From NCBI GenBank assembly GCA_013368325.1, contig JAACJK010000229.1:124001-188000 (forward strand): DNA of 64,000 nt, written 5' to 3'. The notes beneath the pieces were generated by a model. The model ran no database searches and was not told the DNA's origin. It worked only from the letters and a program-made list of their open reading frames with translations. This document shows positions 644 through 58,096 of the stretch, one piece after another. The stretch comes from Ephemerocybe angulata (Eukaryota; Basidiomycota; Agaricomycetes; Agaricales; Psathyrellaceae). Each line of letters opens with the position of its first letter. The first letter of the stretch is position 1. Position numbers and translations under genes: made by a program.

Positions 644-3600
644 ATGTTCCATGAAGATTTCGACCGATCCACACACAACAGGTACGGTTTGCGTGTGTGC
701 GTATCTGTTCATAACTAACGGATATCACACTTTTCCCAGCTTCTTCTCCAACTCTGCCCACGGGCACCAGCCCTCTCTCTCTTTCGCGCTCCCCCAACAC
801 GGACAGAGGCACACCGGGCACGGACTCTCAGCACATCAACAGACGCAACAGCTACTTCGTGACCGCTTACCCCCCATCCAGACCCAACTACTCGGCGAGT
901 TCAACCCCAATGCCGCTGCTGGACCGTCCCGGCATCGGCACCCGGCCGCTGCACACCCACCACCTGTCGCGAGTCCAACTGGTCGTTCGAGCACGACCAG
1001 TCCAGACTCCTACTTTGCGGACGTCGTCATTCGGAAGTACAACGAGCGAAAAGAGAGGGAGAAGTCGAGGTCTGCTCATCCAACAGGCGACCGTCCGAGC
1101 CTCGCGGAGCTAGCAGGGCTCGTCGACTATCATCCAAACTCTGCTGCACCAGGTCCCAGTCGCGTCCTGGTACCGCCAGCTGGGTTTGCGCCGGTGAAAA
1201 CGAACACGAGTAGCGCGCTTGGCGCTGTGGGTTCGAGCGGAGTCGGGGTGCTGAGTGACATAGGCGTTGACAAGGAGCGCGAGCGGAAGGACAAGGAGGA
1301 GAGGAGGCGAGAGAGGAGGGAGAAGAAGGAACGGAAGGAGAGGAAGGTGAAGGAGAGGGAGGGTGATGAAAAGGGGAAGGAGCGCGAGCGGAAGAAGAGT
1401 AAACGGAAGCACAGGGAGAAGAGCCGGGAGAAGGATATATCGAAGGGCGTGTCGAACGAGCCATCGCGGCCTCCAACACCCCCAACGAAACTTGCACATG
1501 GTTCGGGACCCCTGCACCCTGCATTGAACCCATCATCCCCACACGCCATGTTCGCTCCATCTCCCGGGTACCCGCTCGCGACCTCCACTCCTGTCGACGG
1601 GCTCGGTGCGCCCATTCCCGACTTTGACTCGCGAACGCCGACCCCCACGAGTGCCTTCCCCCATCCGAGACCGGGCTCGTACGCACCGGAGGCGACACGC
1701 ACGCCACTGCTGAGCAACCTGGCACCAGACCTCCCTCCCGCTCTCCCTACGGCAACGGCATCTGAGTTCACGTTCCTTCCCCCAGGCCAGATCACCGAGT
1801 CGCCGCAGGTCATTCCACAAGGTGAGCTTGCAGAGGAGCAACCGGTGAGACCACCGCTCGCTGCAAGGACGGGGTCGTTACCTGCGTACAGTGCTCTCGA
1901 CCCGTATGCGACCTTCGGGTCTCGCTCCACGGATGGTCCGGGGTACGGGGTTGGGCTCTCGGGTGTTCCACCTACCATCACGGAGAAGACCGAGAGTATG
2001 CTCGAAGAAGAGACGGGGAGCGAGGGCAGTTCGAGCAGGGATTACGGTACGTCCTTCCGTTCGCGTGTCGAGGAGGGAGACCTTGAGCGCGAGATGGGCG
2101 GTGGTGGGGATGGAGAGGACGTGTCGATCATTGGGAGTGGGGCGGATGACCTACGACCGAACGGCGTACCACTTGGGGAGGTCGATGTCGACGGCGGTGG
2201 GATGGTCAATCCTGCAAGGAAGCCCGGGATATCGCTTGATCACAATGTCGTCGAGAGTCTTCATCTCCCGAATCCGCACGAGGCGTCTTTCACACTCGAA
2301 GTTCCACGTAGCGAACCTGCATCTGCAAACCGCAGTTTGGCACAGGCTCCTAGTCCAGCTGCCCCGTCGCCTGCCGCGAACCCTGCGAATGACGCCAACT
2401 GGCCATCGTCGCGGAACAGTGCTCTTCTCAAGGTGCCCCCACAGACGCTCGTGTCGCTCCTCGTTCGTTCTGAACAGGAGTACGATTCGATGCAGTCGCT
2501 TTATACCCAAGCCGTCGCTGAAGCCGGCGTCGCGCGTCACCAGCTTGGTTTGGAGAAGCAGAAGTGGGAAAACAAGGTCCGGGACGCCGAGGATCGCTTC
2601 AAGGATAGCGAGGAGAGGCGGAAGGAAGCGGAGGCGAAGAGTCGGGAGCGAGGTGAGGTGATCGTCAGTTTGGAGAAGCAGAAAAAGGACAGGGATCGCG
2701 ATATTCGGAGCCTCAAAAAGTCCCTGGCGGAGACGGAGCGAATGGTCGAGAAGGAGAGGGAACTGAGAAAGGTACGTGAGTCCGAGGGGAAGCGGCTGGA
2801 GACTGTTCTGGAGGGTGTGAGGGGACAGGTTGGCCGGTTGGAGGGTGTGGTAAGAGAGAGGGAGGAGAGGATACGGGAGGTGGAATTTGAGAGGGATGAT
2901 GTTCGCGCTATGCTCACGGAGGAACTCGAGCTGTCGAAGAAGGCGATGAACGACCTCGCCTCGGAGCATACGAAGTTGAAGCTCGAGACCGAGCAGGAGC
3001 GTTCGGAGTTTGCGAGAGCCAAGGCTGAGGTGCGGGAACTTGAAGAGCAGTTGCAGGAGGCGAAGGAGGAGGCGGCGAAGGCGAGGAGCAGTGCGAGGAG
3101 GATGAGGGCGGAGGTCCTGGGTCACCTTGCGAAGGAGGAAGGCAGACGGGAGGGATGGGAGGAGGGTATGAAGCGCGGAAAGGGTATGGCTGAGGCTCTG
3201 GCGTTTGGCGTTGGTATCGGAGCCGGTGTTGGTCAGCAGAGGCTTGTCGGGGACGGGATGGCGTATATTGAGGAGGTGTCGCCAGTAGATCGGGATCGGG
3301 GGTTGGGCGAAGATGAAGAGGAGAGAAGAAGGCGCGAGAAGAAGCGCAAGGGGAAGGAACGTGAGAAGCAGAAGGAGCGCGAGAGGCAGCTGGAGCTCGA
3401 GAAGACGAGGGAGGAGGAGGAGCATTTGAGGGAGAAGTCGGAGCTTCTGGCGCGTTTGGCGGAATTGGAGAACAGCATCGCGGCTGAACGGTCCAAATCT
3501 ATGAATCTCCTTGCACAGAAAGACCGAGCTACGTCTGAGATTGGGTCGGTCGTCGAGAGGGTGTATGAGCTTGAAGGACGGTTGGAGCGGGAGAGGGCGG

Positions 3601-6600
3601 AGCGGCAGCGGGAGTTGGATAGGGAGAGGTCAGCGAGGGAAATGGAATTGGAGAGGCTAAAGGAGGAGGAGCGTCGGAAGGAGGAGAGATTAGAAAGGGA
3701 GAAGGAGAGGGAGGTCGATCGTGTTCGGGAAGAAGAGAAGAAGAGGGCTGAGGAAGAGATCTCGAAGGTGAAGAGGGAAAAGGATAAAGAGCGCGAGGAG
3801 GAGGAAGAACGGGAGAGGAGGCGTAGACGCGAACGCGATCGGGAAGTTGAGGAGGAAGAAGAGCGCCTGAGGAGGCGGAGGAGGGAGCTCGAAGAGGAAG
3901 ATATGGAACGCACTCGGAGGGCTGCAGAGGAGGGTAACGAGGCGGCTAAGAAGGAGCGCGAGCAGCGGGAGGAGAAGGAGAAAGAGGCGAAGGCTCTCAG
4001 GGAAGAACTCGAGAAGGCAAAGGAGGAGAGAGAGAGGCTCAAGGGTGAATTGGCGACCGCGAAGACACCTCAGATCACACTTTCGTACCTCCCAATGCCG
4101 CCGCCGCCGCAGCCAGCTGCATCCACATCCAATGCTGGTTTCATACCACCTGGAGTTCCATCGAGTTTGGGTTCGAGTCGACGAGGAAAGGGGAAGAGAC
4201 GGGATAGAGTCGATAGTGGAAGTGATACAGCCTCCGACCTCGGTGCTCTGGATATTCTCAATATGCCAGGCTTCGATAACGACCGCGATCGGGATCGCGA
4301 CTATCGTAACTCGGATAGAGATCGTCGCAGGAGGGAGAGGGAGCGCGAGCGGGAGAGGGTGGCGGGGTTAGGGACGATTCATGAGATGCCGTCATTCTCT
4401 GCGTCGCCGTCGATGGGTGGTCCCATGAGGATGCCCAGTCCGAGCATGGGAGGGGGCATGAGGATGCCTAGTCCTGGTGGTGGTGCGCCACCGAGTTGGG
4501 TTAATGCTCCTCCACCGAACTTGGCGCATGGTGGATCGAGCTATGGCAACCCGATGATGCAGATGCCGCAGCCTGACCTTTTGAGCCCTCCAGACGGACG
4601 ACCAGCATTGAAGAAGATGGGAAGTGGGAGTACCAGCGGGAGTAGCTATGGTTTCCACGTCGAACCTCCGGTGAGTGTCGAATTTTAAGCTCTCGTCTCT
4701 CGCTCGCTCGTTCTTTCATGGACCCATGAAAAACGGGTGCATTATGATGCGAAATTTCTGAATCTACCGGCGACGCATGCGTTGTCGGGATGTTGGTTCG
4801 CTTTACCATCTGATATTCCCCATATCTTTCACGTCAAGTATAACGAATGAATATTAACGACTTCAAACTTTCGTACAGTCACGACCTGGGTCTTCGATGC
4901 AACAGGGTCCCACTATGCCCCAGCCCTACGGCCAACCTCAAACCTTTCTAAGTCCGACCGCTCACGGCGGTTCCGCCCTCCCACACCAGCCACGGAACCA
5001 AGGCTTCTACGGCCGCCCTCCATCCGCCGCAGGGGGAGATACCCGACCCAACAGCCCCTACAGCGTCCCTGGGGGACTTCCCGCAGGATTCATTCCGCAG
5101 AACATGACGCCGAGCGCTCCAAGTGGGATCGGGATGCCTGCTCCTATCGTAAATGGGGAGAACATGGAGGAGAAGGCTGCGAGGCGAGCCAGGAGGGATC
5201 GAGAGAGATACGGAGGAGCGACGTCGAGTATGAGGCCGGACGCAGGGCGCGGTATGCCGCAACCTGAGAGCTCGATACGGCCTGGAGGAGGCGTTGGGAT
5301 GCCTGAACCGCCGAGTTCGAGCATGAGGCCGGATGCGGGACGTGGGATGCCACAGCCCGAGAGCTCGATGCGACCTGGAGCTGGGTATGGGATGCCAGAC
5401 CCGAATAGCGCTGGTGCTGTGACGAGTCCACTCTCTGGCGGAGTTGGAGGCGTTTCGTTCCCTGAGCCGACAGTCCCGATGTACACGGGTGTTCCTAGAA
5501 CCCAGTCATCCCTCGGTACGAGGACGCCTGGTGGATATGGATCTGCGAGGCAAACGCCCGCCAGCGCGGTTGGTGGGGGCGTGCTGAGTATGCCCGAGCC
5601 GACTGTACCTGGAGGACGGACGCCGAGGAGTGGAGGAGCCACGCCAGCCATTGGATTCCCGGAGCCAAGCGTACCCAACATCGTGCCGCAAGGATCGAGG
5701 ACTCCAGCTAGCGGCGCACCGATGAGCTTCCCAGAGCCGGGTGTACCGCAGATCATCCCGAGTGCGGGGATTCGAACACCTGGCGGGCACGCACCTATCA
5801 CTTTCCCTGAACCCAACGTACCGAGCTTCGCGCCCTCGCCTGGACCTGCACCTTCCGCTGTTCTAGGCGGGCGGACAAGGAAAACGACTATGCGGAAGGA
5901 TAAGACTACGAAGAAGGGCGGTATGTCGATGCCCGAGCCTTCGGTCCCCAGCTTCGCACCGAGCCCTGGACCCGGAGCGCCGCTGAGCATGCCTGAGCCG
6001 AGCGTGCTGAACTATACGGGCGTTGGGGGTGCAGGAACGGGGCCGAGTGGACTCGAGACGCCGCCTAGTGGGTTCCCGCCGGTTATACCCCCCATGCCAA
6101 GTATGCCAGGCGGAATGGGCGCGTCGCCCATGATGGGGAGCGTCGGGATGCCGCAGCCTACGGTCGTGGACTATACGGGGGGTAGCAGGACGCCTATCTC
6201 CGCTGGGGTGGGTATGCCGACGCCGACGGTTAGCGGAGTTCCGCTTGGTGCAGAGAGGCCAGTCATTCCGGGTGTCACGACGACTATGGGTGGACGGGAT
6301 GGCGATGAGGGGCCGTTCATTCCGCCGAGCGATGTTTTGTCGCGGGCTGAATCGAGGACGTCGAATGGGCCTGGTGGGAGTAACGGTGGTGGACTCTTCG
6401 GATCGCTTGGGAGCGCGATTGGTGGAGGATGGGGCTGGGGAGGCTCGTCGTCGAACGTGAACAACGGGAATGGGAATGGGAATGACGACAGAGATGATGA
6501 TGGGGGTGGAGACGATGGGTTTGGAGGTGGGGGAGGAGGCTTTATACCGCCGAGTATGAGGGATGCGGAGGAAGATGATGATTTGGATAGTACGACGATG

Positions 6601-25872: not shown

Positions 25873-27998
25873 ATGCGCTCGAGTATCACATCTGAAGCTA
25901 GTCCAGCGAGTATAGCGCATCTTCCCATCGAATTGCACATCTTGATTGTGCGTTACCTCGCCACCAGGCCTCGAAGCCTCTTTTCACTGATCCAGGTCCG
26001 CCATTTCTCGTTGATTCCTATCCGTACCCTACTTTTATCTCCCCGTGAACAATTTCTAACTTCTTCGAGATAGACATGTCACGCGCTTCATACCATCTAC
26101 ACCTCTAAACCTCTCTGGACCGCCGCTCTGCACGTAGTATGTGAGCGCGATGCATTGTTCTTCCCCTCGTACCCCATCGAGACAATGAGCGTGCATCAAA
26201 TCATGCGCGCATGTCTGTCCCCGGACCTGTGGAACGAACGGGTGCGCCGTGGTGATGGGATGAAACCGACAGGAGTAAGACCGTTGGTCGATGCCCATCG
26301 AGCCTCCGACGAGCAATCGAAGACGGACGACTACAACCGAGTGTACTTCGTCCCGGGTGGCCGATATCTTCTAGAACACGCGTACGGGGTTCTGCGTCTC
26401 TGGGACCTTGGGCTCCCCTCCATCCTCCAGCCATCCCGCTCGGATCAAAGGGACGAACTAAGGGTCGTCGACTCAGTCATTACCTCCGATGGTAAAGTCG
26501 GAAGTGTACCGGGCGAGGAGTCTGACGGGGAAGTTGAATTCGTTGTTCATCCGTCGCCAAACGAGATGCGATTCAGGGTGTGGATTGTACCTAGCCCCGT
26601 GAAGGCGCGCGGAGGTGTGAGGTGCGTTATCATAAGCATTGGTATATATACGCGGCTAATTGTGATCCCTACATACGTCGCGCGGTATCTAAGATGCACA
26701 TCCTCAATCTACGAAATCGACCTCTCTGTAGCAGAGCCCAGATTCGAGCTGCTGGCATCCCTAACACTCCTCACACCAGCGGGCTACACCGCAACTTGGT
26801 ATTGGGGGGACCTCAGTATGCTTGGGAACACGGCCGTATTTCACTCCCGCAACGTCGTCATTGTGTGGAATTTTGTTCTGAATCGTGCAAGGGTATGGAG
26901 TGTGCAAGGTTGGACTGCGGGACCTGATCTGGTAACTTGGCCATATCCACGTTTGGCGAATGTACTGACTCTTTGATGCAGCTCTTTCGGTCAGAATCAT
27001 GGATATACATCATTCGACCCAGAAGTGCTCTTGCGTGGCCCGTCCCACCTACCTCTGCTCTCATACCCATAGGCAGTCATACCCTCGACCTAAGGTCTTC
27101 CGACACAATCCATAACCCACCGCCATGCTATGCCGTACTATACGAGTCCCTCCCCACACCCTCCAGTGCTCACACCCCTATCCCGTCGAAGAAGCCTCTC
27201 GGCCGTACGCTCTCGCATTGGTATAACAGCCATACCGGCATTCCTGCTTTGTGGGACGTCCTGAAGGGCATTCCCCCAAGCGCAATCAGGGCGGTAGGAA
27301 ACGTCGAACGCTACACCTTGGATCTCCCCGTCCAAGGGGCGCGAGAGTGGGTAGACTGGGCGGAGAAGACGCCCGTGGAACTCGAAGATGAGAATATGCA
27401 GCGCTTGAGTGACCTGCGCCGAGAACTCCATGGCGAGACCGGAGGGGCTGGGGGGTCCGACTCGGAGCCACGGGCTAAGCTAAGGAGGGTTGCGGAGTTC
27501 GAGGTGCCTGGCCTGAATCGGAACACGTACTGCCTCTACAGGCTTTCGGGCGATATGCTGTTCACGCTTTATCTTGGGTGCCTGCCTGGATGGCAGCTGG
27601 GCGTCGTATGGTCGGATTTCGCTTCCAATTCTTCGCTCGACACTCCGACCTCAGCATCCCTCCCACTCCATCAGCCAAACGACTCAGACCGCGAAGCTTC
27701 GATCGCCGGCGGGGGTAATGGGACGCCTACAACACCGAAGGTGGATAAGGGAAAGAGGCGCGCTGATCCCGAGCCTGTTGAAATCGAGGAAGTCCTTAGT
27801 GGTCGAAGTGGAGTTACGGGGCTAAACTTTACGGACCATGAGCTAGATAGGGATAGCATTTGCTCCTTCACGTTCTGCTCCGCGAGCGGCCGCGTCGCGT
27901 ACTCCTACATCGAGAACCAGGATGGCCGAGGGCGTGGTCGGGCAAGGGTGCAGGTTTTGGACTTCTGGGAAGGAGTGCGGGTGGGGCCTGCGCCGTGA
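25873..27998 (+). CDS. F-box protein, paralogue 1 of the 62.3-kb gene
   Basis: Exons 25873-25995, 26074-26621, 26694-26931 and 26982-27998; 641 aa. The 72-bp intron 2 is a multiple of three and open, so it can be mistaken for coding sequence; the paralogue at 62.3 kb lacks it and confirms the splice (GGV joined to RCTSSIYEIDL). The N-terminus is F-box-like: AHLPIELHILIVRYLATRP, then an intron, then TCHALHTIYTSK. Conserved middle motifs include FFPSYPIETMSVHQIMRACL and RVYFVPGGRYLLEH...LRLWDLGLPSI. The C-terminal half has a disordered Ser/Glu-rich part and ends in GRVAYSYIENQ. It is likely an SCF adaptor with beta-strand-rich substrate region; target unknown. Confidence 0.85.
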
Positions 27999-41501: not shown

Positions 41502-42134
41502 TCTCCATAATCTCCTCTTTCCATCTACGCTGCTCACCACTGCGATCGATCCACTTCTGAACGGTCCCTGGCTTCAAGGTGCCAAAAAGCTTCTGGCCAC
41601 CAAGCCCAAGCGTTAACAGCCTCACGGTCTCGACGGCAGAGAAATGTGCTCGACGTGCCGCGGCGTCAATTGCTGGCCAGTACTTGGGGTCGCACCAATT
41701 GCGACGCGGGGCACGGCACCGTGGCTTTCCTTTGTTACGTCCACGCTGTATCGTGGCAATGGCTTTATTGAGGGCGCTAAAGTTCTTGACGCGCATGGTC
41801 GCAGCCTGTCTAAATTGGACGGTGGCAGGCTAGAGAAGTTCTCATCAATGCCGTTGTTAGTACATGTGGCTCTTCGATGGCCTACCTTGGTCAGCTTTCC
41901 ATCCGCATTACGGAGGCCAGCTTCCATCTCTATCTCATAAATGCGCTTGCGGTGCTTCTTCTGTCGGTTCTTTGCGTTCTCGCGCTTCCTTTCGAGAGCG
42001 CTCTCTTGCTGAGCGACATTGCGGGCCTTCTCGAGGGCGGTACGCTGCTTGATGCTTTGAAAAGCTTGACTTCGTTGCTCTTCATACTCCTCCTGCGGCA
42101 CTTTGGAGAAATATGATGTTATCTTCGGAGGCAT
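41502..42134 (-). pseudogene. Truncated transposon-encoded protein (N-terminal part)
   Basis: Exons 42134-41886 and 41829 to about 41502 (intron 56 bp, GTAGGC...CTCTAG, in frame). The protein begins MPPKITSYFSKVPQEEYEEQ, continues with a Lys/Arg-rich helix, then a NWCDPKYWPAIDAAARR segment and TLKPGTVQKWIDRSG, a pattern I associate with DDE-transposon genes of agaricomycetes. The frame breaks where the inverted duplication begins near 41501, so the catalytic half is missing. Upstream, 42230-42325 holds repeated (C/G)(A/T)TATAAC words, such as GTATAACAATCGGGG and GTATAACTATTTGGGG in reverse, likely subterminal repeats of this element. Confidence 0.55.
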
Positions 42135-42799: not shown

Positions 42800-43232
42800 A
42801 TGCGCCTCTCGTTGATTGCCCTCATACCCCTTACTGCTTTCTGTTCCGCGGTACACGCTCATACCCACGAAGCGAGAGAACACATCGACGAACTCGCAAC
42901 GAGGGCTTTCAAAAACTCTCTAATCACAACACGACAAGACCTGGCCGACCTCTCAACCAGGGACCTCCTAAACGAACTTGAAGACCGCCTTCAGCGCAGG
43001 AAGAATCGCTGGGTCTGTGTGATTTGCGGGAACCCTTATTTCACCCTACAATCAGTACGTTTGTCGCCGAGGAGTGCATCGCCTTATGATTGACTCAATT
43101 TTGTAGGCGGAAGCCCACGTCAAAACGAGTCCAACACATAAGAAGGGGAAATGGACTCTCAATGGAAACCACTGGAACCCCCCTTGGCCCCCGTACGACC
43201 CTACTAAAGACAAGGGGGAATTTTGGACCTGA
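42800..43232 (+). CDS. Secreted precursor with dibasic site and C2H2-like finger, copy 1
   Basis: Exons 42800-43054 and 43107-43232; 126 aa. Residues 1-20 are a signal peptide (MRLSLIALIPLTAFCSAVHA). The conserved pro-region follows (EAREHIDELATRAF, then DLADLSTRDLLNELEDRLQ) and ends in Arg-Arg, a Kex2-type site. The remaining part holds C-x2-C-x12-H-x6-H (CVICGNPY...AEAHVKTSPTH), close to a C2H2 zinc finger, then a Trp/Pro-rich tail. The intron (GTACGT...TTGTAG, 52 bp) lies nine residues after the second Cys, the same place as in the 46.7-kb paralogue. Secretion and cleavage are predictions. A small extracellular or vacuolar zinc-binding peptide is the simplest reading. Confidence 0.75.
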
Positions 43233-43311
43233 GGTCGAAAATCTCGAGATTGGCGCCCTAGCTACTACCTACCTGCGGGAATATATGTCTATATATGGTA
43301 ATATTATGTCA

Positions 43312-43880
43312 TCATCGCCGCGACCGTTTCGAGCCCCTGCATGAACTACACTTCCAAGTCTTATCCTGAGGCGCATAGTCTGTGCAGCGCTTATGGTACT
43401 ATTAAGCCAGTAAGTGAAACGAAATATATGCCCATAGGATGTTAAATAACTCACCCATTCCGTCTCGCACCCCTTTCCTCTACATCTCACCGTGTCTGCG
43501 CTGTTGGGTATGGCAATAATGCCACAGTCGCACAAACAAGAATTTACGAGTGCAGCCACGGTGCGTTTCTTTATCCGACGCCCTCTCCCTGTCTCTTCTT
43601 CAGTTGCAGGTGCCCCGCCCGAAACAACCGCCAAATCCGCCTGTGCTTCAACCGCTTTGGCGCTTGTGCTGACGCCGTGGGACATGCTTGGGTCATCGCC
43701 GTTGCCATCGCCGAGCAACCCGCTGTTCTCCTCAGCTCCTTCTTGATAACGACGGCCATCCCCCGCACCCTGGCCACCACTGGGATCGTCACCATCGCCA
43801 AGCACGTTCTCGTCAGCCCCTTCCTGACAACTATCCTCGCCCTCTTCGATCTCGCCTCTTCCCTCGGGTTCTGTCGCCGC
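43312..43880 (-). CDS. Cys-rich zinc-binding (PHD-like) C-terminus, partial model
   Basis: The last two exons are clear: about 43880-43455 and 43398-43312 (intron 56 bp, GTGAG...TTAATAG). The protein has an acidic, Gly/Asp/Glu-rich stretch with a repeated L(G)DG..DDPS unit, a short basic RGRRIKKR, then CLCDCG...VRCRGKGCETEW, joined to YHKRC...WKCSSCRG. The Cys/His spacing looks like a PHD/RING-type finger and resembles the C-termini of transposon-associated agaricomycete proteins. The upstream part is not resolved. The plus strand at 44.1-44.66 kb has competing frames. A host gene is not excluded. Confidence 0.45.
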
Positions 43881-44099
43881 ACGACGACGCCCCGCTACCG
43901 ACTACGACACGCCGCGTCTCGACTCGCTCTGGCGCCAAGCGCACACCCTCACTCAATGCACTCCCGTTCACTACTGACATAGCACACACTCTAGTCTACT
44001 CGGGTCTAATCCAATCCAGCCCAAAGCATAACCGCAAGCCGCACCTCTCGCGCTACCCGCCGCCGTGCACACTGTCCCCTGAAGTCGATACTTGAGGTC

Positions 44100-44660
44100 G
44101 TACGCATGGACACGCTGCAATGCCGCACTCACAGACGCTTCGCTCGACGTTCTGGGCACTCTTGTCTCCATGTGCGATGTCCTCTGGCTTCCTATGGCTC
44201 TGCGCATGCCGTCAGTGCAGAACGACGATCACATGCGACGCACGACGTACCTGGCTATCGAAACCCCAACCCTGCCATCTCGTGGCCGCACTCCAACGAC
44301 GACGGCTACATCCGCGACAGGCTGCGCAAGCCTTCGTTCTTGTCAGACCACGACGACAGAGACAACGCGAGCTACTCACCGAGCATCACAACAGCTATGA
44401 CCAGTTGGCGCGGCACAACAAGCTCTTATCCACCGAATTTCCGACCTGTATGGATGGAGGCGTGAGTGCACGACGTAGGCAGGGCCTGGCGTCGATGATG
44501 TGGCCAGCACTGGGGATGCAAGTCAGTCGTCGTCTACAGCGAGAATCGACCTTGACTCACGACCTTGTGCCGCACTCTCCCCACCATCGGCATCGTCGCT
44601 CCACGACCAGCAGCACTCCCGACGAGCTCAACCCTGGCCCAACTCGTCTGTGAACATTGG
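44100..44660 (+). pseudogene. Degenerate coding-like sequence, unassigned
   Basis: Two overlapping plus-strand frames each read protein-like in turn (ISWPHSNDDGYIRDRLRKPS, then ELLTEHHNSYDQLARHNKLL), switching frame near 44360-44380. This suggests an old coding region broken by an indel. No homologue recognised. Confidence 0.3.
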
Positions 44661-45146
44661 AGACATGTCAGTGAACGGTATGGTAATCGGGAAAGATCAA
44701 TCACTGACCCAGACACCGAGTTGGTCGTTGAAATGTAAGCCGTCGGATGTTGCGCGTCATGGTGGTGTCCGTCCTTCGCTGCTACTGAGAAAGGTCAGTG
44801 GATTCTTCTACGATGAAATAAGTACCACTCACGAACTATAGAACCCCTGGCCACCATCGTTGCTGTTTTCCACGACCCGCAGAGTTCCCGAGCATGAAGT
44901 CCGCCGTGTAGCACGACGAACTCGACTGTTTCCAACGTCGGTCAGCCTGGGTAGACGTGAGTACACGAGCAAGAAAATACCAGCATTGACCAGCGCGTCG
45001 CCGAGAATGACCAAGTCGGAGGTTCAAGCATGATGTGGTGAGCTGAAAGGTGTGAGCCAGCGTTCGGAAAGTGGGAAACATGGTGCTCACCGTGCAAGAC
45101 GACGAGTTCCCCAGAGGCGCGGTGACGGGACAGTTCTGCAGACACA

Positions 45147-45660
45147 AAAGGTCAGTAAAAGGGTTATAGCAAAGTTATAAAACTCACAGACTTCGACATG
45201 CTCGAGCTCGTCGCCTGCAATGACGAGCACAACTCTAGCGAAGCTTGTCAGAACAATACCCCAGCGTGAAAAATGGACTCGAGCTCACCGTGACTCCTCG
45301 ACATGAATGACGACGAAGGAGGGTAGAACAGGGGAGGAACAGAAAAGATGAGAAGGGAAGGTTGTGGTTGGGTGTCGACGAATCGATTCTACAGAAAAAC
45401 CAAGGTCAGTAGAAGGCTTGTAGCGAAGTAAGAAAAAGCTCACTGACGTCGAGGTCCTCGCGCTCGCTGTCCACGGCGACGAGCACGACTCTAGCAACGC
45501 TCGTCAGAATAACATCCCAGCGCGTACAAATGAAGTCGAGCTCACCGTGAGCACCCGTCTTGCTCGACATGGGCGACGGCGGCGGAGGATAGAAAAAGGG
45601 AGGAAGAAGGTTGTGGTTGGGTGGCAAGAAGGGAGCGTGCGATTCTAAACGAAAAGAAGG
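45147..45660. repeat. Two imperfect tandem units of about 255 bp
   Basis: Unit 1 (about 45147-45400) and unit 2 (about 45400-45660) share AAAGGTCAGTA, GACGAGCACRACTCTAGCRA, the GTCAGAAYAAYACCCCAGCG word, CGAGCTCACCGTGA and GAAGGTTGTGGTTGGGTG in the same order. On the minus strand each unit looks like an ATG exon (MSSKTGAH or MSRSH), a GTGAGC...GCTAG intron and a VVLV-rich exon. This may be a duplicated gene start. Weaker echoes lie at 44910 and 45090. Confidence 0.5.
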
Positions 45661-45689
45661 CGGGAAGTGACATGTATCACTGGGCCCAC

Positions 45690-46240
45690 CAGCTATGAGT
45701 ACCTCAGTGGCGGCTACGATCTGGATATCTATACCTTGTTCTGCCTTTTGGATTGGCAGACCAAGTCATACTCTCTCGAAAAGTCTTGAGAAGCTGAATC
45801 CTGATAACGGCGTTCTGGTCAGAGGTGAACCTTGAGCTGACTCTTCGAATGTGCAGTGTCCGGGCTGTTTTATTAGTCGAGCTCGGGGCAAATACCACCC
45901 CTGGATAGACTGCCCTTTTTATTCTTGCATTATTGTCGATGAATTTGTTGTGATCTCGCGCATTTTATAGTACCTTTAAATTCTATACCTTCTACCTTCC
46001 CAGGCGGCTCCCGCCAAGGGAGCCCCGCCCATGTTTCACTTTCTTTTCTCTTTGGACTTGCTATCTCAATTTCGCTCTTCAACTCCATCGTATCGTACTC
46101 TCCACCAAGCGTTTAATCCTATCATCTTTTGACCTACTTTTCCTTATCGGTTGGCCCGAGAGAAGAATCGCCTAGGTTGCGTGATTCCGAGGCCCATTTA
46201 ATCCCGCGCCACAATGGGTCTATGGTTTGTCGTGTTAGGG
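45690..46240 (+). repeat. 3' module of the small-protein locus (copy F)
   Basis: GCTATGAGTACCTC resembles the final HEYL region of copy B, followed by GATTGGCAGAC, TGACTCTTCGAATGTGCAG, AGGCGGCTCCCGCCAAGG and ACCAAGCGTTTAATCCTATCAT, then the tail words TTTAATCCCGCGCCACAATGGG. The coding part is essentially lost. Confidence 0.5.
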
Positions 46241-46654
46241 CTTCGTTGCGTATCTCGGACATAATACTTGGTACCAAAAGACGAGGGTCAGTGTCGTGGA
46301 TCTGCTTATGTCCCACTGACGGGGGGCATTGACATGGTAACTGCACTTACAAAGCTGAGCAATAAACGTGGGTCTGACCGTCTGATGGATGAATGGGGCG
46401 ATTCCAAACGGGAACCTCAAGGTATAACTCCGCGGTTTGTTACATTTAAGCAAAGCAAAGTTTATACCTAGTATAAAGTAGACGTGATACTACAATAGGA
46501 TTAATTGACACGACACCCAGCTAGGGCTTGCGATGATTTTCGTCGATTTGAAAGATAGCATAGTGAGGGAAATTGTTGATTGGCTCGCGGGTTGGCTCGC
46601 AGGTGCGGCCTTCTGCTCGTCCGTTGGGGTGTGGTACAAGGGTTTCCCCCAGGT

Positions 46655-47052
46655 TCATGGCTTACACTGGTGGTCCCCTGTCAAGTGGGCGTTGTACTGC
46701 AACCAATGTGAGAGTGTGCGAGTAATCGTGGATGGATAGAAATGGAGGGCTTACGTAGTTAGGGACGACGAACTGTCTGGGGCAGAAGGGGCACTTCATT
46801 AGACTCTGACGGCGCTCCAAACGCTCGGAGAGGTCGCTAATTAGGTCACGGGTAGAGATGCTGGCCAGAGCATCTCCAATGTCTCGTACGCTCAGTTCAT
46901 CGATGTATTCCCTGGCGTGAAGGGTATCCTAGTGACAGGCGCATTGTAATTAGTACAGTTAGCGGAAGAGGAGAAGATTTACCCACATCCGAATGAGCAT
47001 ACACGAAGTTTGCAAGTGCGAGAGCGAGGGAGGTAATGATGGAGACACGCAT
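46655..47052 (-). CDS. Secreted precursor with dibasic site and canonical C2H2 finger, copy 4
   Basis: Exons (minus) 47052-46987, 46928-46755 and 46696-46655; 93 aa. The signal peptide is MRVSIITSLALALANFVYA. The pro-region (AREYIDELSVRD, DLISDLSERLE) ends in Arg-Arg. The last 30 residues hold C-x2-C-x3-F-x5-Y-x2-H-x4-H (CPFCPRQF...NAHLTGDH), matching the C2H2 consensus with Tyr in the usual Leu position. Introns are 58 bp (GTGGGT...CACTAG) and 58 bp (GTAAGC...TTGCAG); the second splits the finger at the same position as in copy 1, and the first matches the first intron of copy 2. It is the most diverged but best-formed finger of the family. Confidence 0.78.
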
Positions 47053-48056
47053 TTCAGAGGTTGCCTTGAGATGATGTCGGTTGGTAAGGTGAAGGGACTT
47101 TGAGGCGTCCGAGTTCAATGTGGAAGCGGTTTCGAGGTTAAAGTGCACAAGGGTGCGTTGAAATGCGAGAATATAGTGGATCTTTGGGAGCAGTGGCTCC
47201 TCGCCTCGTGCAGGTATATAGAGGAAACAGGGCGGGTGATGCCAAATCGTTCGCCCGCATGCAGAGGCATAGCCTTGGCATCGCCCAGACCGTCTGAAGG
47301 CAATGCGCGATGCATGGCTGAAGTCGCCGGATCACTCCTATCAATGCTATCGCGTGCTAAAGCATCAAACGAGTCTTGAGGCTAAACCATTATCTGGCGC
47401 CTAAGCGCGGGCGCGCCTCAATCGCCGGACCAGAAAGAAAGTGAAACTACGGGAACAGCGGGGATACTTAAACTGCTGAAACATGTAAGGGCCACTCCAG
47501 TGCACCAAAAAAGGGCGGGTCTTGCGACTGTCCGTAACGCAATGCCAGACTACCGACGAGCGGGCCCAAGGAGACGCCTGTCCAATGGATACCGTACTTG
47601 ATCGAGATGGTTCGGGATCTTCATGGTGGGTTAACAAGTGTCCCCTTGACAGTTCTTGAAGCCACTGATGGAAGATCCATCAGGGGCTATACGGCTTCGC
47701 GAACGTGCGCGGGCCATGAGACTCATCGGGCGGGATGCCGATCTATGCCGATGGTGGGCTATTACGCGTGACAGCACGCGGTGGACCGTTTCGTCCGACC
47801 TGATTTCGATACCCATACTAGCCTATACTGTTATCACGACTTGGAAACTCCTTCTTATTAGTACTAACCAGTGTAATCGGCTATAGGGAATTTTACTTCA
47901 ATTCTCTTTGTGAGGATGGCATCGCCCCTTGCGCTACAACGATGCGGCGGAGGCGCGAGACCGGAGACGCATCAGGACGCATCTCGTGGTTCCACTGGAT
48001 CCGGATGCAATCCGGCGACAAGGCGAGACGAGGTCTCAAATCCACGCGGCGTGTCG
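47053..48056. other. Intergenic region, no gene seen
   Basis: Upstream region of copy 4 (minus; TATATAC at about 47214-47220) and of copy 2 (plus). No credible gene. Confidence 0.4.
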
Positions 48057-48200
48057 CTGATAGGTAAAAGATCTGCATGCCGTCTACGACGATCCGTGCA
48101 TAATTACTTAAAAGACACGGGGCCAGGGCCAGAAAGTGGCAGCATCCGTCCCCGCCCCCAGTTCCTTGCCAGTTCCCCAACGCCAAGTCCAGACCCCATT

Positions 48201-48737
48201 ATGCGCCTCTCATTGATTGCCCTCGTACCCCTTACTGCCCTCTTAAGTTCCGTGGTACACGCTCGCAGCGACGTATGTATACGTATATTCTCAAAAGGTC
48301 CCCTCGTGACTAACCCCGAATCTGTCAAGTATACGTACGAAGCAAGAGAACACATCGACGAACTTGCAACACGTGCCTTCGACGACTCTCTACTCACAAC
48401 ACGGCAAGACCTGGCCGACCTCTCAACTAGAGACCTCCTGAATGAACTCCAAGACCGCCTTCAGCGCAGGGAATCCACATTGGAGCGCCTGAAGCGCTGG
48501 CTCAAAATGAAATGGCCAAGCGGTAAATACTACTGTGTAGAATGTGGCGGTACCTACGCACGGCCTTACACGAAAAGCGAAGTACGTTTGTCGTCGCCGA
48601 ACGCTGTGCTGCCGCTTATGATTGACTCGATTTTGTAGGCTATAAAACATATCAAGGAATCTGGGTCAAAACATATCCTATGGATTAAGAATGGAAAGAA
48701 TGGAGAACCAATCGACTTTATCTGGAAGCCACAATGA
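48201..48737 (+). CDS. Secreted precursor with dibasic site and finger, copy 2
   Basis: Exons 48201-48272, 48330-48581 and 48639-48737; 140 aa. The signal peptide is MRLSLIALVPLTALLSSVVH plus Ala; the pro-region (YEAREHIDELATRAF, DLADLSTRDLLNELQDRLQ) ends in Arg-Arg, then a basic linker (RLKRWLKMKWPSG) absent from copy 1. The finger is C-x2-C-x15-H-x7-H (CVECGGTY...AIKHIKESGSKH), three residues longer than a standard C2H2 loop. Intron 1 (GTATGT...GTCAAG) passes through frame as open sequence. Promoter words GTAGGTAAAAGATCTGC-like (48061) and AAAGACACGGGGCCAGGGCC are shared with copy 3. Confidence 0.75.
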
Positions 48738-49320
48738 GCCATCAGCCCGTTGCTCTCCCCCGGGTGACTCCTGGGTGGTCTCGGGCGACTGCCGGCACTC
48801 CTGGGCAACTCCTGGGTGATGCTTGGCTGATGCTGGTTACCGGGTGGGGGCTCTGGGGCATACTCCGGGTGGGGTTTAGCGGGAGGTGCCTCCTGGTTCT
48901 GCGGGCGCTTCAGGGAGTGCTAGAGGGCCGGAAACTGTACACATTGATTTGGGGGGAGTACGAGATAAAGCATGTTCATATTACCCTTGAAAATTAGTGG
49001 GCATATGTATGATGGGGTCAGGATGAGCCTCTCCAGCTCGTGATTTTTGTGAGATCGCCCAATGGTTGGACACATTTGTGAGTACCGGGCGCGGGGATAT
49101 GGGAGACAATATGTCGTGAAAAGTCAGCCCCATTGCCCATTCCGCAATGTCCTTGTACTAACATTTAGCTCGGTCACAGACCAATCACAGACCCGAGCTA
49201 GCCGTGCCGCCGCTCGCGCCCGATATCCAGGGCATACAAGAATATCAAGCGCGCACTTGCTGCTCCCTGGGGCTCCGTCGTCGTTGGCTTGGGGATTGTC
49301 GATGTGGTTGGTATTACCCG
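48738..49320. other. Interval between copies 2 and 3
   Basis: Holds short imperfect CTCCTGGGTGA-type repeats at about 48760-48850; otherwise no gene seen. Confidence 0.35.
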
Positions 49321-49330
49321 ACCCTGCGAG

Positions 49331-49952
49331 TAGGTAAAAGATCTGCAAGCCGTCTACGACGATCCTTGGCACTTGCATAGAGATACTTATAAGACACGGG
49401 GCCAGGGCCAGCAAGTGGCAGATATCGACCACATCTGTCCCCGCCCCCAGTTCCCCAAGCCAACGCTCACAGCGACGTATGGATACATATATTCTCAAAC
49501 GGTCCCCATCGTGACTAACGCTCCCGTCCACCCCGAATCTGTCAAGTATACGTACGAAGCAAGAGAACATATCGACGAACTCGCAACGCGTGCCTTCGAT
49601 GGCTCACTACTCACAACACGGCATGACCTGGCCGACCTCTCAAGTTTCAACTAGAGACCTCCTAAATGAACTCGAAGACCGCCTTCAGCACACGGAGGAA
49701 TCCAAATCGGACCGCCTGAAGCGCTGGATCAAAATGAGATGGCCAAGCGGTAAATACCAGTGTGTGCAATGTGGCATTGATACTGCATGGATTCACAAGG
49801 AAAACGACGTACATTTGTCGTCGCCGAACACTGTGCTGCCGCTTATGATTGACTCGATTTTGTAGGTTATGAAACATATCAAGGAAAAAGGTACAAACCA
49901 TGACCTATGGCGTAAGATTGGAAAGGATGGAAAGCCGAGTACTAGGAGGTAG
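49331..49952 (+). pseudogene. Secreted-finger precursor copy 3, broken
   Basis: The promoter block (49386-49418) and the region from CGCTCACAGCGACGTATG onward closely follow copy 2. Two lesions are visible: the segment coding for the ATG and signal peptide is deleted between CCCCAAG and CGCTCACAGCGACG, and about 7 nt (AGTTTCA) are inserted within the DLADLS-TRDLL region, shifting frame to a stop at about 49652. The downstream finger (CVQCGIDT...VMKHIKEKGTNH, intron GTACAT...TTGTAG) is still well preserved, so the loss is recent. The dibasic Arg-Arg is replaced by His-Thr. Confidence 0.7.
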
Positions 49953-57466: not shown

Positions 57467-58023
57467 GGTGGCCCGAAAAGCTGATGGGTTAATGGGAGTG
57501 CCGAGTGATAGCAGAGCCTTCAAACGACCAAGCATACCACGCTGGGAAGGATAAGGCGGAGTTCAACGAAGTATCAAGGACTTCAGCTGGGGCGGGGAGG
57601 GCGGTGGTGGTGGTGAAGAATATAGAAGAATATAGAGTAGATATCGGCTGTCTTGCTCAGCAAGAAGCCGCAAGCGGCAATGATGACAGGATGTCGACAA
57701 AAAACGTGATATGACTGATCAAATCAAGGGTGCCTCACGGACTCCAAGTGAGAACTTGGAGTATAGCACAAAGAAGGACTGAACCTCTATTCGACGATGT
57801 CCATGAGATATCGAGAATGAGAAGGTACCACACTATATCTCAAAAACGTAGTCAGAGTCAAGTCAGAGTAAGAGTCAGAAGCGCGCTACCACCTTACCCT
57901 CCTAATACTGTATACGTATTGCTGAATATGAATTGTAATTTGAGAAACCCGGGTTCAAGATGCGATGAAAACCAAAAATTGTGACTACGCCTGCTGCACA
58001 TCAGGATAAGATGCAAAAGGTTA
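57467..58023. other. Upstream region of MsrA, no gene seen
   Basis: Contains the msrA promoter (minus; TATATTCT-like words near 57615-57640) and nothing else recognised. Confidence 0.35.
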
Positions 58024-58096
58024 GTCCCCACCGTGGTTCGAACACGGGACCTCGCGATTTGCAATCGCACGCTCTAATCCACTGAGCTATGGAGAC
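58024..58096 (-). tRNA. tRNA-Cys(GCA): tRNA-Cys (GCA)
   Basis: 73-nt cloverleaf on the minus strand without an intron. The acceptor stem GTCTCCA pairs with TGGGGAC (one G-T). The D-arm GCTC...GAGC, anticodon stem TGCGA/TCGCG with loop TTGCAAA (anticodon GCA, cysteine), and T-arm CCGTG TTCGAAC CACGG are all present. A T-run terminator downstream was not clear by eye. Confidence 0.93.

Follow-up and report, generated by a model that had tools for sequence, protein, structure and literature searches.

A large family of predicted Kex2-processed secreted precursors with a variable finger-like core in the mushroom Ephemerocybe angulata

The 64,000-nucleotide stretch of the genome of the inkcap-type mushroom Ephemerocybe angulata (Psathyrellaceae) that is analysed here (contig JAACJK010000229.1, positions 124,001 to 188,000; C150:124001-188000 in our numbering, further referred to as the window) carries three intact genes and one broken copy of a very large gene family. 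The encoded precursors consist of a signal peptide, an acidic and almost Cys-free pro-region that ends in LxRR, and a short cationic domain, which contains a C-x2-C pair and two further Cys/His residues and is split by a phase-0 intron. Whereas the finger codons diverge, the intron between them and the pro-region stay conserved, and this coupling of a conserved prepro part to a hypervariable finger is the key property of the family. It had gone unnoticed in the initial annotation, which was made from the letters of the window and proposed secreted precursors that release a small C2H2-like zinc finger after dibasic cleavage. On balance, and with some reserve, we favour the reading that the genes encode precursors from which Kex2 releases secreted, zinc-stapled, diversifying peptides, probably with a role in antagonism or recognition. 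The signal peptide would route the preproprotein into the secretory pathway, the acidic pro-region would hold the chain inert, and a Kex2-type protease would cut after LxRR to give a cationic peptide with a median length of 47 and a minimum of 27 residues. The C-x2-C pair and the two further Cys/His would hold a metal (most likely Zn2+ acquired in the Golgi) that would staple the peptide as disulfides do in defensins. With this scaffold kept and the other residues evolving more rapidly than the domain's internal intron, the products of at least 84 copies could constitute an extracellular arsenal or a recognition repertoire, directed against bacteria, animals or rival fungi, or acting between mycelia.

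The family was charted in the 58.7 Mb genome (232 contigs; locus tags D9611_). A search with copy A of the window (Table 1) yielded at least 147 exon-level matches at E<=0.001 (150 of 211 candidates scored), where one gene may give several matches (copy A gives two). The stretches examined for gene models cover 134 of these 147 matches, with 13 lying outside, and contained 92 entries with the pro-core pattern, which came down to 84 distinct ones after one chance match had been removed and identical cores had been merged. The family is therefore very large, with at least 84 distinct pro-regions in this genome. An in-frame CxxC-type pair was found for 78 of the 84 and a leader model for 80 (both for 75), the leader being a hydrophobic stretch according to a simple hydropathy-and-splice score and not the call of a trained predictor. 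Gene models that were picked by splice-site and leader scores, with no finger required, showed the same layout again and again: signal peptide, pro-region, LxRR, CxxC, phase-0 intron and further Cys/His. Our own models and the database agree for L126 and L121, whose mature parts count only 27 and 28 residues and display a C2H2 pattern, and which equal the NCBI models P0059 and P0081, respectively. Two other explanations were rejected: chance open reading frames (ORFs), on account of the family size and the agreement with NCBI models, and intracellular regulators with a mispredicted leader, as leader, pro-region and cleavage site recur in the NCBI models. Intracellular C2H2 regulators are expected to lack a signal peptide, whereas the leader score picks one out at nearly all loci.

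The profile search that the initial annotation had suggested (7993 candidates scored) retrieved homologues indeed. The matches listed came from another E. angulata strain (DFP72DRAFT_), from Candolleomyces eurysporus, C. aberdarensis and C. efflorescens, from Coprinellus aureogranulatus and C. micaceus, and from a few metagenome fragments. Database searches together returned 121 proteins, 117 of which have the pro-core; these 117 form the set used below. Some members have been named 'ectomycorrhizas-regulated small secreted protein' by NCBI. To our knowledge E. angulata is neither mycorrhizal nor a pathogen, and such labels, which stem from name transfer, could mislead comparative work. A Volvariella volvacea gene with a similar name, at most a candidate member of the family, is given 0.01, 747.5 and 1.23 transcripts per million in strains PYd21, PYd15 and H1521, respectively (PMC3595290).

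The precursor layout is very regular. The pro-region counts around 44 residues and ends in LERR in 88 and in LQRR in 15 of the 117 relatives (103 together). Cysteine makes up 2 of 5009 pro-region residues versus 366 of 6232 mature residues, and the mature part measures 27 to 139 residues (median 47). In the 91 relatives that display a four-ligand pattern (see below), the mean charge is -5.8 for the pro-region and +4.6 for the mature part, the latter being positive in 90. Signal peptides were read from sequence and hydropathy; with that reading, the precursors show the arrangement of Kex2-processed pro-domain (K2PP) effectors, in which a signal peptide and an N-terminal pro-domain precede an RR/KR or LxxR site. 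We regard the gene architecture (leader, pro-region, LxRR, finger-like core) as practically secure, and cleavage at the Kex2-type site as very probable. In 15 of the 117 relatives the protein terminates in GRR, KRR or RRR, which suggests that the basic pair at the C-terminus is perhaps trimmed as well.

The strongest sequence evidence that the peptide would be cut out comes from P0027 (D9611_013020), which holds three 37-residue cores that are identical at the protein level. Each core follows LERR and has its own intron, and the first two are followed by DKR and a short spacer, so that several identical cores lie between Kex2 sites, as in the Kex2-processed repeat proteins (KEPs). The cores differ pairwise by 5, 8 and 5 codons, all synonymous, which indicates that the core has been kept by selection and is not merely the result of recent duplication. 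Two fingers separated by a dibasic site occur in both P0001 and P0002. Two or more consecutive C2-CH units occur in P0049, P0052, P0064, P0070, P0073 and P0083; these lack a KR/RR between the first two CxxC pairs, and some of the six may thus act as multi-finger proteins. Tandem identical cores between Kex2 sites also recall the alpha-pheromone precursors as outlined in published descriptions, and the peptides could be autocrine or inter-mycelial signals (pheromone-like, or for allorecognition) instead of weapons. In keeping with this, the family occurs in both strains, and the matches listed for each appear to be different members in part, but at least 84 copies are many for signals and we consider a purely signalling role rather unlikely.

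To specify the character of the mature part, the spacing of its Cys and His residues was inventoried. A CxxC was present in 110 of the 117 relatives, and a four-ligand pattern in 91, compared to a mean of 5.7 and a maximum of 11 in 200 shuffles of the mature parts, the patterns having been written after the sequences had been seen. The 91 comprised 47 C2-CH, 37 C2H2 and 7 C2-C2 members (C2H2 representing 30 of 88 after relabelling by eye). The C2H2 and C2-CH members have two to three framework Cys plus His and the C2-C2 members four Cys, as in six Candolleomyces proteins examined. A relation to true zinc fingers is clearest in the C2H2 class: P0034 (30.0 bits) and P0006 (36.6 bits) exceed the gathering cutoff of Pfam zf-C2H2 (PF00096; 25.2), 10 of 23 C2H2-class members match this family at E<=0.01, and copy B reaches a sub-threshold 15.8 bits (for a typed 94-residue form with one extra residue). 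In the AlphaFold2 model of P0059 the last 20 residues adopt a beta-beta-alpha layout with a predicted local distance difference test (pLDDT) score of 84-86, within a model that is poor as a whole (mean 64.7). Among the 50 Foldseek rows shown for this model almost every one is a zinc finger, and the model superimposes on finger 8 of Miz-1 with a template modelling score of 0.77 by target and a root mean square deviation of 1.3 over 27 columns. The proposal of a finger released from a secreted precursor after a dibasic site gains support from LxRR, the three-core precursor and the retention of the ligands, but its C2H2 character does not generalize, since that class is a minority (37 of 91), C2-CH is the largest and some members are C2-C2.

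The scaffold contrasts sharply with the remainder of the domain in its rate of change. Of the 92 pro-core entries, 47 gave usable models and 45 entered the pair comparisons, weak or odd models having been dropped, partly by eye. In 33 close, non-independent pairs the mean DNA identity was 0.924 for the pro exon, 0.625 for the first finger exon, 0.839 for the finger intron, 0.587 for the second finger exon and 0.63 for the 3' flank, against a shuffled-sequence baseline of 0.48-0.53; in 29 of the 33 the intron inside the finger showed greater similarity than the finger codons. In 17 disjoint pairs the non-synonymous divergence (dN) of the mature part was 0.419, compared to 0.106 for the finger intron, 0.101 for the first intron and 0.060 for pro-region dN, and mature dN exceeded the finger intron in 15. 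Cys/His columns were identical in 71% of cases versus 50% for other columns (same 17 pairs). The three youngest pairs, chosen post hoc, showed 53.5 non-synonymous versus 2.5 synonymous changes (p 7.8e-5), and in the eight best-aligned pairs the ratio of dN to synonymous divergence (dS) was 0.24 for the pro-region. Ligand class requires 4 changes on a tree of the prepro part versus 31 when shuffled, so that the exchange of entire mature cassettes from one class to another does not seem to be the usual course. This tree has 88 rows and 72 columns with many forks unresolved; P0063, P0092 and P0094 were omitted from the 91 rows and six rows were relabelled by eye.

Several of our results weigh against zinc-stapled, diversifying peptides and should be considered together. 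The initial annotation expected homologues to keep the Cys/His residues, which holds for the 91 patterned relatives; the other 26, many of them fragments or odd models, lack the pattern, and P0008 has lost the second Cys. In the scan of ten family proteins, the eight other than P0034 and P0006 stayed under the zf-C2H2 cutoff or gave no match; copies A and C had no PF00096 match, and copies A, B and C are all under the cutoff. Of 24 C2-CH members scanned, one matched zf-C2HC_2 (E 1.2e-4) and one zf-CHCC (E 0.011), and the remaining 22 matched no zinc-finger family, which leaves the class uncovered. As to the fold prediction, the Foldseek E-values for the P0059 model are not significant (best 0.24), the VIA Z values for fingers (2.0-2.5) rank under three non-finger rows, and a C2-CH model with pLDDT 81-87 in its last 30 residues found no convincing fold match. 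C2-CH and C2-C2 members could be disulfide-bonded. Mature dS is also raised (0.427 in the 17 disjoint pairs), so that part of the rate contrast may reflect misalignment, recombination or local hypermutation, and the mature dN/dS of 1.29 in the eight best-aligned pairs is not significantly above 1 (Fisher p 0.12).

One alternative is that the Cys form disulfides throughout, the His being incidental, and that we deal with an ordinary secreted Cys-rich family without metal that resembles fingers. Secreted Cys usually oxidise, and the four mature Cys of the Candolleomyces proteins and the unmatched C2-CH model agree with this. However, it would limit C2H2 members to a strained CxxC disulfide, and neither the His kept in the ligand place, nor the two proteins above the zf-C2H2 cutoff, nor the greater identity of the Cys/His columns would be expected, so we deem it improbable. 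Metal binding is well motivated, and quite probable, for the C2H2 class on the basis of pattern and model, and plausible for the other classes. A different mechanism for the contrast would be gene conversion that homogenizes the 5' part, together with exchange of 3' cassettes and no selection on the finger. The divergence of the 3' flank and the raised mature dS are in line with such a process, but the first finger exon lies between the conserved pro exon and the conserved intron in the 33-pair comparison, and ligand class tracks the prepro tree; we rate it, too, as rather unlikely. Least probable are zincophores or metal buffers, in which the finger carries zinc and the rest of the sequence is free to drift. 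Such molecules would explain that ligands are retained more than other residues, but relaxed drift predicts a dN of at most about the intron rate, whereas mature dN is around four times that of the intron, and the P0027 cores have been held identical by purifying selection.

The four copies in the window lie clustered within 7 kb (Table 1). That three are intact genes and one is broken, as initially annotated, is confirmed: copies A, B and C translate without stops after removal of GT-AG introns of 52-58 nt, and copies A and C are identical in every letter to the NCBI models P0007 (D9611_012278) and P0022 (D9611_012281), respectively. Copy B itself was absent among the protein database matches, which did include its 71% identical paralogue P0001; P0004 and P0005 are further NCBI-modelled paralogues. 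In copy D the pro-region has a frame-breaking insertion relative to copy C, and the genome search matched this copy at C150:173544-173648. The last intron splits the finger in phase 0 in all three intact copies, each of which has one core, and the two copies annotated as C-x2-C-x12-H are A and B, copy C having C-x2-C-x15-H.

Table 1. Family members in the window and their introns
Feature	Coordinates	Strand	Description
Copy A	exons 42800-43054, 43107-43232	+	126 aa; C-x2-C-x12-H-x6-H; mature part begins after RLQRR
Copy A, intron inside finger	43055-43106	+	phase 0, 52 nt, GTACGT...TTGTAG; NCBI protein requires same junction
Copy B	exons 47052-46987, 46928-46755, 46696-46655	-	93 aa; C-x2-C-x12-H-x4-H after RLERR
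Copy B, intron inside finger	46697-46754	-	phase 0, 58 nt
Copy B, intron between signal-peptide exon and pro-region	46929-46986	-	58 nt; paralogue proteins cross same junction
Copy C	exons 48201-48272, 48330-48581, 48639-48737	+	140 aa; C-x2-C-x15-H-x7-H after RLQRR and a linker
Copy C, intron inside finger	48582-48638	+	phase 0, 57 nt
Copy D, broken	49331-49952	+	without signal-peptide exon; changed donor site; finger still recognisable

Upstream of copy A lies an ORF at 41622-42134 on the minus strand, which begins MPPKITSYFSKV. The idea that copy A sits beside a high-copy transposon gene was rejected, as this ORF has three genome matches including itself. A partial second copy (69% identical) at C114:27226-27447 sits between family matches at 26812-27024 and 27435-27581, and a stretch resembling the ORF is fused to family member P0019 in strain DFP72; the ORF seems to duplicate along with the peptide family. 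Elsewhere in the window, 45148-45339 and 45402-45605 are two imperfect copies of a stretch of around 190 bases (74-83% alike in three pieces, around 255-266 apart) that the tandem repeat finder did not report. Positions 2001-4000 show strong strand asymmetry (GC skew 0.385, AT skew 0.260) and include purine-rich short repeats at 3353-3404 and 3650-3710, and ARAGORN places a tRNA-Cys (gca) at 58023-58096 on the minus strand.

A conserved leader, an acidic pro-region, a Kex2 site, a hypervariable, cationic core with a retained ligand frame and clustering of the copies together amount to the organisation of peptide arsenals such as those of defensins and conotoxins. We give a role in antagonism or recognition an even chance. 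More tentative, and somewhat short of that, is the wider proposition that in a mushroom lineage the zinc finger has become a weapon or a scaffold for recognition outside the cell, with around a hundred Kex2-released, zinc-stapled mini-proteins in a single genome that are hypervariable outside the ligands and have switched their ligand sets between C2H2, C2-CH and C2-C2. Zinc fingers are treated as intracellular, given that the extracellular environment is oxidising and contains little free zinc. Extracellular use, if confirmed, would be unusual; a large, secreted and diversifying set of fingers would illustrate how nature can cope with these conditions, and would supply compact scaffolds whose variable surface tolerates change. 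The tandem precursor, in a mushroom that is not known as a pathogen, would make a tractable system to address the purpose of the very large families of small secreted proteins in fungi. Our literature search, which covered open-licence papers, found none in which Kex2 processing is combined with a finger core in a large variable family, in agreement with the remark in the initial annotation that the arrangement was not recognised as described.

Several known systems nevertheless share part of the design. The K2PP effectors SnTox3, ToxA and SIX1/4/6 are described as having a signal peptide, an N-terminal pro-domain and a Kex2 motif RR or LxxR (PMC8528282), and thus resemble our precursors in what precedes the mature protein. 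Unlike these effectors, our family counts at least 84 copies and has as its mature part a short domain (median length 47 residues) that resembles a metal finger; the mushroom is not known as a plant pathogen, and processing is predicted. The KEPs (PMC9769878; see also PMC6339444, PMC7329392) resemble P0027 with its three identical cores and its KR and LERR sites, unlike the single-core copies of the window; the words 'zinc' and 'cysteine' are absent from the main text of the paper on KEPs in Agaricomycetes (PMC9769878). MoHTR1 and MoHTR2 of Magnaporthe oryzae combine a signal peptide with a C2H2 finger and are secreted nuclear effectors according to the main text (PMC7672089), but they are two studied proteins and not a hypervariable family, the comparison being made by description and not by sequence. 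The same precursors might release peptides that likewise enter host or prey cells and act on nuclear nucleic acid, for which the existence of C2H2 members, the basic mature parts, the rice blast precedent and the 'ectomycorrhizas-regulated' names could be adduced. However, C2-CH and C2-C2 together account for 54 of the 91 patterned members, specific DNA binding is rare for a lone finger that lacks strong basic arms, and the mushroom is not known as pathogenic or mycorrhizal. The main text of the MoHTR paper makes no mention of Kex2 (PMC7672089). All in all, we consider nuclear action to be distinctly unlikely.

With regard to window copies that stay under the PF00096 cutoff, and P0034 and P0006 that exceed it, the difference from ordinary members of this Pfam family is the leader that reads as a signal peptide. 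Defensin and conotoxin precursors have a conserved prepro part, with an acidic pro-region, and a hypervariable, cationic mature part in which a Cys frame is kept. Our precursors share the conserved acidic prepro part, the hypervariable cationic mature part and the kept frame, but in our precursors His forms part of the frame, which looks like a metal site and not like a set of disulfides. If this is true, Zn2+ does for these peptides what disulfides do for defensins and conotoxins.

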